Shown: positions 13,132 through 17,803 of the stretch, in pieces
How the letters are laid out: every line of letters begins with the position of its first letter
Position numbering within the stretch: the first letter of the stretch is position 1
Assembly (NCBI GenBank): GCA_019694655.1
Contig: JAIBBN010000002.1
Coordinates: forward strand, 434,001 to 498,000
Source of the DNA: Leptospirales bacterium
Lineage (GTDB): Bacteria; Spirochaetota; Leptospiria; Leptospirales; Leptonemataceae
Length of the DNA: 64,000 bases
Reading direction: 5' to 3'
The notes under the pieces: model-generated
The model's input: only the letters and a program-made list of their open reading frames with translations
What the model was told of the DNA's origin: nothing
Databases searched by the model: none
Program-made: the position numbers and the translations under genes

Positions 13132-14007
13132 TTACTCAGCAACTGCCGGCTCGCCTTCCGGGGCCGGCGTCGCTGCCGCCGGTTGCGCGCCGCGCACCGG
13201 CTCGTCGGGAATAAATTCACCCGTCTCGTCGTACTCGCCTTTGTACTTCATCGAATCGACGCGGAGCGAATCGCTATCCATCGTAGCATCATCGTCTGTA
13301 AACTCGGCGCCCGATACGATGCCCTGCGTTCCCTCAATGACCGCATCGGCCATCGTTTGCAAGAAGAGCGAAATTGCGCGAATGGCGTCGTCGTTGCCTG
13401 GAATCGGATAGTCGATTTCGTCCGGGTTGCAGTTGGAATCAACTACAGCAAAGATCTTACAGCCCATCTTGCGGCCTTCCTGGATCGCAATGCTTTCTTT
13501 GCTTGGATCGATCACAAAGAGAATCTCTGGAATGCCGAGCATATCCTTGATGCCGGCCAGGTTCTTGCGCAGTTTTTCCAACTCGCGTCGAAGCTCCAGG
13601 GCTTCCTTCTTGGTGCGGGCTTCTTGCTCAAAGCTGCCGGTTTCCTCCATGGACTCCAGGCGCTTCATCCGGGCGATGGATTTCTTCACGGTAGCCCAGT
13701 TCGTCAAAAGACCGCCAGGCCAGCGGTTATTTATGTAGAACATGCCGCAGCGCTGGGCCTCGCGCTCAATGGCGCTGCGGGCCTGCTTTTTCGTGCCAAT
13801 GAAGAGCACTTTCTCGCCGCGGTGGGTGTATTCGCGCAGAGCCTCGTAGGCCTGCTTGGCGAGCTGCACCGTCTTTTGCAGATCGATGATATGGATGCCA
13901 TTGCGCGCCGTGAAGATATAGGGCGCCATTTTCGGATTCCACTTTCGAGTCTGGTGTCCGAAATGTACGCCCGCCTCGAGCAGGTTCTTCATGGAAATGG
14001 TCGACAT
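13132..14007 (-). CDS. rpsB: Small ribosomal subunit protein S2
   Basis: Component of the 30S head/body junction. From the ATG at 14007 the protein has 291 residues. The start is chosen because [15 protein letters not shown] begins the conserved domain and a GAGGA site lies upstream; a longer frame to 14058 would read into the DUF4321 gene. [11 protein letters not shown] and LFVIDPSKE are conserved S2 segments. The C-terminus carries an acidic, then Pro/Ala/Glu-rich tail of about 50 residues beyond the usual fold. Confidence 0.97.
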
Positions 14008-14014
14008 AGTTTTC

Positions 14015-14260
14015 TTAGTTCCTCGTGTATCGATAGAAGAACCAGCCGGCAAGGCCAAGACCCAGGAGGGCGCCCGGCGTCAGCTGCAGTTCCAAACGCT
14101 TCAGCAGATAAAAGTCCTCAATTGTTACGGGGCTCCCAAAGAGCTCAACATTCAACCAGCCGAATCCAAAGACCTGTTCTAGAAGCGAGCCCAGGGCCGC
14201 TCCCAGGAACATGCTGAGGAGGCAGGCCAGGATCACAAATGCGATCGGCAGCTTCCCCAT
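14015..14260 (-). CDS. Small membrane protein, DUF4321-like
   Basis: An 81-residue protein with an N-terminal hydrophobic helix (residues 5-30) and a C-terminal one (about 60-77) ending in YRYTRN. The layout GSLLEQ, then GWLN, a short soluble loop, and a final [13 protein letters not shown] helix resembles the DUF4321 family of small membrane proteins known from spirochaetes and clostridia. Function is unknown. It lies 7 bases upstream of rpsB and looks like the first gene of the long minus-strand operon. The 119 bases in front show no convincing promoter. Confidence 0.7.
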
Positions 14261-14379: not shown

Positions 14380-14781
14380 TTAGCCCCTGGCCTCCAGCCG
14401 TGGTAGCAAGCAGAGCTCGGCCAGACCGCTGCCGGCATCGAGCACCATTGTGGATTCGTTGCTCAAAGCCGATACAGCCTCACGCGCAAGCCAGCCTGGA
14501 AGGTCGCGCAGCCGCTTCAACTCCAGCGAGCGCTCCAGCTCCTCGCGCCCAAACGCCGATATCTCGGCCACGATATCACGCAGGCAAGGCCATAGTTCGG
14601 CAAACGCGTCCGAAGCGGCCGTCCGCTCGAAAAGGTCCTGCAATCGTTGCACGCTGGCGGCGCCGGTAACTGCCAGATCGCCCCTCTTCAATGCCAACTG
14701 GAGAGCCAGATTGAGCGAACGGCCCTCAGGTCCAGCCAGAGCTAACATTCCCATCGCACCAAGATAGATGCGCTCCTTCAC
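14380..14781 (-). CDS. PIN-like protein with degenerate active site, partner of RHH protein
   Basis: A 133-residue protein starting at GTG and overlapping the RHH gene by 4 bases (GTGA). Its predicted alternation resembles a small VapC-type PIN domain: a first strand YLGAMGML, a helix containing QDLFER, a helix containing LAREAVSAL, and a late strand MVLDAG. PIN nucleases normally carry Asp, Glu, Asp and Asp at these places. Here the first is Gly8, the second Asp49, the third Glu101, and the fourth is Gly117 or a shifted Asp115. RNase activity is therefore doubtful. The PIN assignment is by eye and moderate; the operon layout is that of a toxin-antitoxin pair. Confidence 0.55.
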   Translation of the reverse strand: MKERIYLGAMGMLALAGPEGRSLNLALQLALKRGDLAVTGAASVQRLQDLFERTAASDAFAELWPCLRDIVAEISAFGREELERSLELKRLRDLPGWLAREAVSALSNESTMVLDAGSGLAELCLLPRLEARG

Positions 14782-15017
14782 CCGCGCTGCGCCTCGCGCC
14801 GCAATTGAGCCTGCTGCTCCAGCGAGAGCGGCGGCCGATGAATCAAGCTCTCAAGGGCGCGTAGCGAAGCATAGGCCCCGGCCGGTTGATGCACGCTGAG
14901 CAGCGCCGAACGCAGCACCTCCGCCGCCGGGCGACCTTGCTTTGCCGAGATTTGATCGAGCAGCAGTCGCTCTTCCTCAGTCAGCAGCATCTGGAAGCGC
15001 TCCGCCCGTCTTGGCAT
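14778..15017 (-). CDS. Ribbon-helix-helix protein, antitoxin-like
   Basis: A 79-residue protein with the RHH pattern in its first 45 residues: strand RFQMLLT, then helix EEERLLLDQISAKQ, a turn at GRP, and helix AAEVLRSALL. This fold binds operator DNA as a dimer and is common in antitoxins. The C-terminal half is charged and could clamp a partner. The ATG has an AAGGA ribosome site. It is followed by an overlapping PIN-like gene. Autoregulation is expected from the family, but no clear operator repeat was identified upstream. Confidence 0.65.
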   Translation of the reverse strand: MPRRAERFQMLLTEEERLLLDQISAKQGRPAAEVLRSALLSVHQPAGAYASLRALESLIHRPPLSLEQQAQLRREAQRG

Positions 15018-15134
15018 GGGGAATCCTTCAGCAGCATTGCTCGGCAGTCAAGCAGCCGACGCCACCGCGTCCCGACCGAAGGTTGACTTTTTTTGTTTGC
15101 CCGCAGGGCTACGCTGCCGGCATTCCAGAGTCGA

Positions 15135-16127
15135 ATGTCCCTCGCCTTCCTTGTCGCGGCCTGTCTCCTGCTGGCGCTGCTTATCGGCCACTACGGATTG
15201 CCGGAGAAGGCGCTGCCGATGCCGCCTGCGCCAGACCCGGAACATATGCTGGAAGGCGCCGCGCCCTGGCGCTTCGAGGGCAAGAGCGGCATTGCCTTTC
15301 TGGTCATTCATGGCTACGGCGGCAGTCCCTTCAACGTACGACCGCTTGGGGAATTCCTCCATAGTTTGGGCCATACTGCAATTGGACCACTGCTGCCCGG
15401 CCACGGTACGCGCATCGAGGACCTGGCGCGTACCCGCTTCCAGCATTGGGAGAGTTACATCGAACGAATGTATCTCGAAGAACGGTCGCGTTACCGCAAA
15501 CTATTTCTGGTTGGATTTTCCATGGGCGGCGCCGTTGCCCTGCGCATTGCATCGCGGCATGCCGATACCTTTCGACCGGCTGGACTGATTACCATCAGCA
15601 GTCCCGTTTTCTTTAATGGCTTCTTCAATGGCCGCCTCATCTTCCATCAGCCTACAATGCCACTGACCGGCTTGATCAAGATCTTTCAGCCCATTCTTCG
15701 TCTGGAGCGCAACCGACCTGGACAGGTGGAGCGCCTCAATCCCTGGGTCGGCTACCGTTACCAGCACGCCCTGGCCGCGCTGCACAGTTTCAAGCGCGCA
15801 CTGCCCGCCGTGCGAGCTGGGCTGGGCAGAATTCATGCCCCCTATTGCTCGATCATGGCAGCCAATGACCGGACAGTGAGCGCCGAAAACCAGGCCTACA
15901 TATACAATCGAATTCAGAGTCGTGAAAAGCGCGCTTTGATGTTTATCCTGCCTCCCGATCTTTCCACCATGCATACTTTGCTCACACACGAGCGCGCTCG
16001 CGATCGCGTGTTCCGTTTCCTTCAATCATTCATTGATGAAACCTTGAACGCTGATTCCGCCCCGCGACCTGCGCCGAAGGGCTGGAAATTTCCGCGTCTG
16101 CGGCGCGGCAAATTGACAGCGATATAG
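15135..16127 (+). CDS. Alpha/beta hydrolase, membrane-anchored esterase-like
   Basis: A hydrolase of the carboxylesterase/monoacylglycerol-lipase type. From the ATG at 15135 (330 residues) it begins with a hydrophobic signal anchor, then HGYGGSPFNVRPL and LPGHG. The nucleophile elbow GFSMGG places Ser at about 129, the candidate acid is in AANDRTVS, and the candidate base is His in MHTLLTHERA. A TTG at 15093 would add 14 residues. A TTGACT box at 15083 may mark a promoter, but no good -10 lies at 16-18 bases. Substrate unknown. Confidence 0.8.
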   Translation: MSLAFLVAACLLLALLIGHYGLPEKALPMPPAPDPEHMLEGAAPWRFEGKSGIAFLVIHGYGGSPFNVRPLGEFLHSLGHTAIGPLLPGHGTRIEDLARTRFQHWESYIERMYLEERSRYRKLFLVGFSMGGAVALRIASRHADTFRPAGLITISSPVFFNGFFNGRLIFHQPTMPLTGLIKIFQPILRLERNRPGQVERLNPWVGYRYQHALAALHSFKRALPAVRAGLGRIHAPYCSIMAANDRTVSAENQAYIYNRIQSREKRALMFILPPDLSTMHTLLTHERARDRVFRFLQSFIDETLNADSAPRPAPKGWKFPRLRRGKLTAI

Positions 16128-16210
16128 CGTTCAACGGCAAAGTGAACGAAGCTCGACCTGACTTGCCCGATCCCGCTTGCCGCCGCCCCTCTATCTCGAA
16201 ACCTGGCGAA

Positions 16211-17803
16211 ATGAAGCACTGCATTGTCGTTGCAGACAAGTTTGATCCGGAAGGCGTGGCTCGACTTCGCCAGCAGTCAGGCCTGGAAGTGCTTTATGAT
16301 GGCGGCTACAGTCGCGATCGCCTGCTGGAAATCATGCCGCAGGCGCAGGGACTGATCATTCGCTCGGCAACACGCGTGGATGCCGCGCTTCTGGAGCGCG
16401 CGCCAAACTTGAAGATTGTCATACGCGCCGGCGTAGGCGTAGACAATATCGATATTCTGGAGAGTTCGCGCCGCGGCGTCATCGTAATGAACGCTCCGGG
16501 CGGCAATACTGTCTCCACTGCGGAGCAGGCTCTGGCGCTGCTCTTTGCCCTGGCGCGCAAGACGCCGCAGGCCAATGCCTCGATGAAGCAGGGAAAATGG
16601 GAAAAGAGCAAGTTTGTCGGCGTTGAACTGACCGGCAAGACCCTGGGCGTTGTCGGTCTTGGCCGGATCGGAAAGGAGGTCGTCAAGCGCGCCCGCGGGC
16701 TGCAAATGAATGTCGTTGGCTATGATCCCTATATACCGCCGGCCAACCTGAGCCATCTTGAAATTGATATCGTCGCTCTGGAGGAGCTGCTGGCGCAGTC
16801 GGACTTTGTAACGGTGCATACTCCGCTGACCGACGCCACGCGCGGTCTGGTCAATTTGCAAAACCTGGCTCGCCTGAAAGACGGCGTGCGACTGATCAAC
16901 TGCGCGCGCGGCGGAATTTACGAGGAAGCCGCGCTGGCCGAGGGATTGCGCAGCGGCAAAATCGCCGCCGTGGCGCTGGATGTTTTTTCGGAGGAGCCTC
17001 CGCCGTCCGGGTTTGCTCTTACCGAGATGGAAAATTGTATAATGACGCCCCATCTTGGAGCGTCGACCGGCGATGCCGAATTCGCCGTAGCCATGGAGTC
17101 GGTGGACCAGCTCATCGAATACTTTGAGCGCGGCATTGCTCGCAATGCCTTGAATTTTCCGACGGTCGATCCGGAGGCTATGGACTACCTGAAGCCCTTC
17201 TTCCAGGGCGGAGAGAAAGTAGGTCGCATGCTGGCGCACATGCTTCCCGGCGATCTGGCCAGCGTGCAAATCGACTACTGTGGAGAAGTTGCAAACTTTG
17301 CCACCCAGCCGGTAAGCACGGCCATACTCTGTGGCGCACTCAGCGTTGCCATGGGCGATGAAGTGAATTTCGTCAATGCGCCCGTTTTTGCTCGCGACCG
17401 CGGCATTCAATTGCAGGAGAACAAGAAAGCTGCCGAGCGTGGATTCTCCAGCTATGTGCACGTCCGCTTCTCCACGTCGCGCGGTCAGAGTACAGAGAGC
17501 AAATTTACTAGCGTCAATCGCGAACCGCTGGTTTTTTCGATGTTTGGCCTGCCCATCGAGTTCAAGCCGGATGGCATCATGTTACTGGTTACCAATCGCG
17601 ATGTGCCGCGCGTTGTTGGCACGCTTGGAAATTTCCTGGGCGATCTCAATATCAACATTGCCCATCTCGAGCTCAGTCGCGACGACAAAGGCGGCACGGC
17701 CTATTGCATGATGACCGTGGACGACCTGCTGAGCCCGGAGGCGCTGGCAAAGCTGCGCGGCCTGGACAATATCCTGAACGCGGTGCAGCTGGATCTGCGC
17801 TGA
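16211..17803 (+). CDS. serA: D-3-phosphoglycerate dehydrogenase
   Basis: First step of serine synthesis, oxidising 3-phosphoglycerate with NAD. From the ATG at 16211 it has 530 residues, the length of long SerA proteins with an intervening ASB domain and a C-terminal ACT domain. The nucleotide motif is GVVGLGRIGKEV, the signature DFVTVHTPLT and the GGIYEEAAL segment follow, and catalytic Arg (INCARGG), Glu (SEEPP) and His (MTPHLGAST) are present. The ACT-like end spans MLLVTNRDVPRVVGT to the terminus. A GTG at 16142 would add 23 residues that do not match the family. Confidence 0.96.
   Translation: MKHCIVVADKFDPEGVARLRQQSGLEVLYDGGYSRDRLLEIMPQAQGLIIRSATRVDAALLERAPNLKIVIRAGVGVDNIDILESSRRGVIVMNAPGGNTVSTAEQALALLFALARKTPQANASMKQGKWEKSKFVGVELTGKTLGVVGLGRIGKEVVKRARGLQMNVVGYDPYIPPANLSHLEIDIVALEELLAQSDFVTVHTPLTDATRGLVNLQNLARLKDGVRLINCARGGIYEEAALAEGLRSGKIAAVALDVFSEEPPPSGFALTEMENCIMTPHLGASTGDAEFAVAMESVDQLIEYFERGIARNALNFPTVDPEAMDYLKPFFQGGEKVGRMLAHMLPGDLASVQIDYCGEVANFATQPVSTAILCGALSVAMGDEVNFVNAPVFARDRGIQLQENKKAAERGFSSYVHVRFSTSRGQSTESKFTSVNREPLVFSMFGLPIEFKPDGIMLLVTNRDVPRVVGTLGNFLGDLNINIAHLELSRDDKGGTAYCMMTVDDLLSPEALAKLRGLDNILNAVQLDLR

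Follow-up and report, generated by a model that had tools for sequence, protein, structure and literature searches.

The window, that is, the whole stretch of 64,000 nucleotides analysed here, is part of a 575-kb contig, one of the 33 that make up a Leptospirales draft genome of 3.9 Mb. On its minus strand are two small genes, which a sequence-only reading had described as an overlapping RHH and PIN-like pair, and both open reading frames were confirmed. The upstream half of the pair (14778-15017, minus strand, ATG start) encodes a 79-aa ribbon-helix-helix-type (RHH) protein. The downstream half (14380-14781, minus strand, GTG start) encodes a 133-aa protein with a predicted PIN fold, whose catalytic positions are replaced (G8, R46, L98 and G117). 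The two genes have four nucleotides in common (GTGA, 14778-14781, minus strand), which suggests that their translation is coupled. A divergent intergenic region of 117 bp (15018-15134), probably containing promoter and operator, separates the pair from an alpha/beta hydrolase gene transcribed in the opposite direction (15135-16127, plus strand; Abhydrolase_6, E = 4.2e-13). The hydrolase gene is adjoined by a serA-like phosphoglycerate dehydrogenase gene (16142-17803, plus strand; 2-Hacid_dh_C at 2.1e-61, PGDH_inter and ACT). The context on the other side includes rpsB, for ribosomal protein S2 (13132-14058, minus strand; Ribosomal_S2 at 3.5e-95). Between the pair and rpsB lies a membrane-type ORF of 81 aa (14015-14260, minus strand), for which a Pfam search gave nothing over its cut-off.

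Searches of Pfam, PDB sequences, PADLOC and NCBIfam with the 133-aa protein were empty except for one PDB match, at E = 1; against Pfam nothing appeared at E-values up to 10, so that no PIN domain stood above the cut-off. Among 25 aligned members of the family, nine matched the Pfam PIN domain (PF01850) at E ≤ 1, the best at 4.9e-7. An AlphaFold2 model of the window protein, predicted from an alignment of 10 relatives, had a pLDDT of 93.7 and a pTM of 0.88. When this model was searched with VIA-align, VapC toxins came out on top: the best match was VapC20 (5wzf, Z 14.6, rmsd 2.3, 124 residues), and the R. felis VapBC2-DNA (3zvk, Z 13.5) and FitAB-DNA (2bsq, Z 11.5) complexes were also found. 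VapC-type proteins made up most of the Foldseek matches as well. The structural matches also include the cyclodehydratase RohQ (Z 10.5) and tRNA synthetases (Z 8-8.8). As modelled, the 133-aa protein is a PIN fold closest to the VapC toxins, in agreement with its first description as PIN-like. At the profile level, the Klebsiella RHH-VapC complex 7by2 was matched on chain B by the PIN profile (E = 0.0033) and on chain A by the RHH profile (E = 0.0021), each match being weak by itself. The two top PDB matches of the PIN profile were set aside because they are designed proteins.

The motif columns of the active site were placed by profile alignment against a set of 13 PIN-like proteins found in the phylum, rather than by superposed coordinates. 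This comparison set consists of 15 regions from the weaker matches of the phylum search, minus L181, an ortholog, and L182, the weakest; its members were counted as PIN by motif, and L187 is aligned without its start. Of the 13 proteins, 12 have D at the first column and 12 have E at the second; the third is D in 9 and the fourth D or N in 11. Three or four catalytic residues are retained by 12 of them. In the window protein the same columns hold G8 (Asp1), R46 (Glu2), L98 (Asp3) and G117 (Asp4), and no acid stands within one column of any of them. The spacing of these positions matches that of the FitB catalytic residues, given as D5, E42, D104 and D122 in PMC5086665, but the middle part of FitB is longer. 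The degenerate active site announced from the sequence is thus borne out in this alignment, all four catalytic positions being replaced, with some correction of the residues involved: Gly8 and Gly117 were correctly placed, whereas Asp49 and Glu101 lie three residues past the motif columns R46 and L98, and Asp115, proposed as a shifted fourth residue, falls two residues before G117. The window protein has probably lost nuclease activity, judging from these residues.

The loss is common to the family. With a strict count (D, E, D, D/N), six of 26 family proteins retain none of the catalytic residues, 16 retain one and four retain two, so that the homologue with all four acids that was sought among the orthologs was not found. 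Asp1 is present in 13 proteins, Glu2 in four and Asp3 in none, and the fourth position is D or N in seven (one of the 26 rows has an unread residue here).

The window RHH protein has an R7-x-Q9-x-L11 motif and R36; L11 and R36 are invariant in 25 members, and most RHH members retain R/K-x-Q/H/N-x-L near their start, the region through which RHH proteins contact DNA. RHH_1 (PF01402) was matched at E ≤ 1 by 19 of the 25 aligned members (best 1.5e-7), the window protein itself having no match. Its monomer model is mediocre (pLDDT 79.7, pTM 0.43), with predicted helices at 14-27 and 31-43 and no strand.

As a rule, toxin-antitoxin modules are mobile and patchily distributed. The distribution of this pair was examined in 392 genomes of the phylum, of which 30 belong to the order (22 to the family of the window genome and eight to a sister family); several are incomplete drafts. 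An ortholog is found in 26 of the 30, always as one strong match per genome, and a small upstream RHH-type gene, overlapping or adjacent in a VapBC-like layout, accompanies 25 of them if one fusion is counted. In the window's family, a nine-member PIN profile gave one strong match in each of 19 genomes out of 22. The same 19 have the RHH gene, and ten of the matches were further orthologs with E-values from 6.5e-26 to 8e-9. Six sister-family pairs were reached via RHH matches, with PIN E-values of 2.2e-17 to 3e-4 in the fetched loci. A 25-member PIN profile added genome G028 (3.8e-19), bringing the sister family to seven out of eight; the other E-values from this profile are inflated in strength because the searched sequences sit inside it. 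The profile matches across both families indicate that this PIN-like family is more than a chance grouping. A possible PIN start codon is found at the same 4-nt-overlap offset in 18 of 25 cassettes.

The four genomes of the order without the pair are G009, G017 (95% complete), G021 and G023 (99%), and the pair is therefore dispensable. Since 26 of 30 genomes carry the ortholog, 25 with the RHH half, the catalytic loss is not a recent decay. In the tree, the pairs of the sister family group together in a single clade (local support 1.0), and none of the 25 terminal branches is longer than that of the window copy. PIN and hydrolase distances are correlated over 12 genomes (Mantel r 0.55, p 0.0003). 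A search of plasmids for PIN relatives, using one sister-family protein, gave no match. Outside the order, the best match in the 392-genome sample (G376, 1.3e-13) stands behind an ORF that is RHH-like by reading, and its PIN protein keeps three of the four catalytic residues, Asp3 being changed to Cys. Further matches within a genome are much weaker, and those fetched resemble ordinary PINs. The window genome itself (G000; contigs C10, C11 and C23, regions L188-L192) has five other PIN matches over the Pfam cut-off, one with an internal stop; these are likely to be ordinary VapC-type proteins.

Two loci, each known from one draft genome, depart from the usual layout. In G010 the RHH and PIN halves are in a single reading frame of 251 aa from the RHH start (L084:3088-3840, minus strand, same as L041), which is either a genuine gene fusion or an artefact of assembly. 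In G028 (L181:520-933, minus strand) the PIN-like gene starts a few bases past the stop of an ORF that is nitrite/sulfite-reductase-like, a name given by reading only. No RHH match was obtained by profile search in this 75%-complete genome, and none lies between the PIN gene and the preceding ORF. A PIN gene without an adjacent RHH gene hints at non-toxicity.

Selection was estimated from within-genus comparisons of relatives of the window copy. For PIN, all 15 pairs had a pN (0.15-0.48) lower than their pS (0.54-0.88); synonymous change was saturated in eight of them, and the remaining seven gave dN/dS values of 0.20-0.71, two of which are comparatively high (0.50 and 0.71). For RHH, pN (0.12-0.33) was below pS (0.49-0.96) in eight out of eight. 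None of the 26 strong PIN matches has an internal stop. By these sequence comparisons, purifying selection acts on the pair in relatives of the window copy. The one strong match per genome, the open frames and purifying selection in relatives leave the idea of a decayed toxin, or rotting gene, unsupported.

The pair is a constant unit across differing neighbourhoods. In the window's family, the hydrolase gene lies divergently beside it in 14 of 19 cassettes (the fused G010 copy included); of the other five, two have it a few genes away, in two it was not seen next door, and the last stops at the end of its contig. None of the seven sister-family cassettes has the hydrolase called beside the pair. 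Being absent next door in four of 19 family cassettes and in the seven sister-family ones, it cannot be a universal target. A member of an acyl-CoA dehydrogenase cluster follows directly downstream in six of the 19 family cassettes, with a 4-nt overlap in four of these, and a carboxyl transferase cluster member comes after it in three (both cluster names rest on the Pfam scan of one member each). Sister-family neighbours differ from these and are constant as well, with an rpiB-like gene downstream in seven out of seven. The window hydrolase has an N-terminal hydrophobic segment and is 41-66% identical to 11 relatives. Mean pairwise identity is 0.52 for the hydrolase, versus 0.29 and 0.23 for the RHH-PIN pair. 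Of its 12 closest relatives among the matches listed (at least 42% identity, best segment), 11 carry spirochaete names (Leptospiraceae, Leptospirales, Spirochaetia and others) and one is named "bacterium". In search of a shared operator, the best inverted repeats ahead of the RHH gene were compared for 13 of the 19 cassettes of the window's family, and these had nothing in common. We infer the hydrolase as a putative target only because of the shared 117-bp intergenic region.

Taken together, we consider it probable that the pair is a module derived from VapBC/FitAB that has lost its nuclease activity and survives as an RHH regulator in which the PIN protein is a structural co-subunit. Its retention in most genomes of the order suggests that a former toxin has become a fixed and harmless part of a gene-regulating complex. 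The origin would be a VapBC/FitAB-type toxin-antitoxin module, made of an RHH antitoxin and a PIN toxin. The PIN protein would have lost its metal-binding residues in an ancestor of the order, keeping its fold and its link to RHH; the change would presumably have run from toxin to regulator. At present the two proteins would form a physical complex acting as a non-toxic regulator, in which RHH dimers occupy the operator and the PIN dimer serves as a scaffold, joining RHH dimers into a tetramer or octamer and raising their affinity for DNA, like the toxin subunits of FitAB and VapBC. With the catalytic residues gone, such a scaffold is the simplest role left for the PIN half. Likely targets would be the pair's own promoter and, in the window's family, also the divergent alpha/beta hydrolase. 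According to PMC3384007 and PMC5086665, VapBC complexes control their own transcription, and the higher-order structure of the DNA-bound FitAB hetero-octamer accounts for the way the complex raises the DNA affinity of the antitoxin. NTHi VapC1 mutants without toxicity are reported to retain VapB1 binding (PMC4229260). Of the possibilities raised by the sequence-only reading, a regulator that kept only RHH binding is the best supported as regards regulation, itself a deduction; "only" does not hold, as the PIN half was retained too. A more specific version can be put forward as possible but rather doubtful: an order-wide RHH repressor of lipid breakdown genes (alpha/beta hydrolase, acyl-CoA dehydrogenase), with the nuclease-free PIN as a lasting and possibly ligand-sensing subunit, the toxin-antitoxin module having been domesticated before the two families split.

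Other explanations have to be weighed against a domesticated regulator. The pair might still be a toxin-antitoxin module with a rearranged nuclease site, in which the displaced acids Asp49, Glu101 and Asp115 still hold a single metal ion and support slow cleavage of a specific RNA. The acids of the window protein are indeed three residues from two of the catalytic positions and two from a third, Asp1 is retained in half of the proteins (13/26), and for NTHi VapC toxins an Asn at position 4 has been reported as a variant of the canonical site (PMC4229260). However, Asp3 is missing from all 26 and Glu2 is found in four only, no substitute acid is fixed (the Asp49 column is acidic in 9/26 and the Glu101 column in 12/26), the window protein is without an acid within one column of the four positions, and the G028 PIN copy has no neighbouring RHH. 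We regard this explanation as unlikely.

No more probable, in our view, is a PIN fold that has taken on new chemistry or binds a ligand, and uses the RHH protein as a DNA-binding output. RohQ among the structural matches (Z 10.5) speaks for it, and the lipid-type neighbours (the hydrolase, and acyl-CoA dehydrogenase in 6/19) would suit a metabolite sensor. Yet 25 sequences have no invariant or nearly invariant column. Up to profile column 111, the columns common to half or more of the 26 are mainly hydrophobic or small, and the polar ones, D8 (13), K34 (14), T41 (15), S42 (20) and D83 (17), form no evident constellation. Since no polar set is fixed, the earlier proposal of different chemistry in a PIN-like family is left unsupported.

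It is very unlikely that the dead PIN pairs with another, active PIN of the genome, completing or restraining its site, as for SMG5-SMG6. That precedent (PMC12923823) and the five PIN matches over the Pfam cut-off elsewhere in the window genome would fit, but there is no fixed acid to give in trans, the commonest acid in a non-catalytic column being an Asp (17/26; Glu81 in the window), and the neighbour that stays constant is the RHH gene. Least probable of all is that the toxin gene is simply decaying, a pseudotoxin that is being lost and has been retained by chance: the long branch of the window copy and the four genomes of 30 without the pair would agree with it, against the confident predicted fold, the absence of stops in 26 strong matches and a pN lower than pS in all 15 pairs, with synonymous sites saturated in eight.

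Several known systems resemble the pair in part. FitAB of Neisseria gonorrhoeae (2bsq, 2h1c; fold match Z 11.5-11.6) also associates RHH and PIN partners, but the four FitB residues are replaced in the window protein, and at least two of the four in each of the 26 family proteins. Klebsiella VapBC with its RHH antitoxin (7by2/7by3), two chains of which the two profiles match in 7by2, and VapC20 (5wzf), the best structural match, differ from the present pair, which has lost the catalytic residues, occurs as one strong match per genome in a conserved place and gave no evidence of toxicity here. SMG5, an inactive eukaryotic PIN, likewise retains the fold without catalysis of its own and is used within a complex (PMC12923823); unlike the PIN protein here, it acts in eukaryotic RNA decay, has no RHH partner and completes the site of another PIN. 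The Leptospira VapBC modules are the same kind of gene pair in related organisms (PMC6406750), but databases or assays class those as toxins. Among the open-licence PMC titles and abstract starts listed, none describes a Leptospirales RHH pair whose PIN is inactive.

The pair, held across two families with a toxin half that is predicted to fold and has lost its catalytic site, bears on the question whether chromosomal toxin-antitoxin copies gain ordinary cell functions. It makes a clean test case for the contribution of the PIN half after the loss of toxicity, and it tells that gene order alone is insufficient for calling RHH-PIN pairs VapBC toxins.

One further observation concerns the window genome, which encodes a LipL32-family lipoprotein (G000:C11:64788-65294; L219:4603-5346, plus strand; PF12103, E = 2.2e-62) with a LAGC lipobox by reading. 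LipL32 is a hallmark of pathogenic Leptospira, so that a copy in this genome was unexpected. Among the 30 genomes of the order no match was found beyond the window genome, the sister family having none. The local G+C content of the LipL32 locus, 0.55-0.60, is similar to that of the window (0.58).
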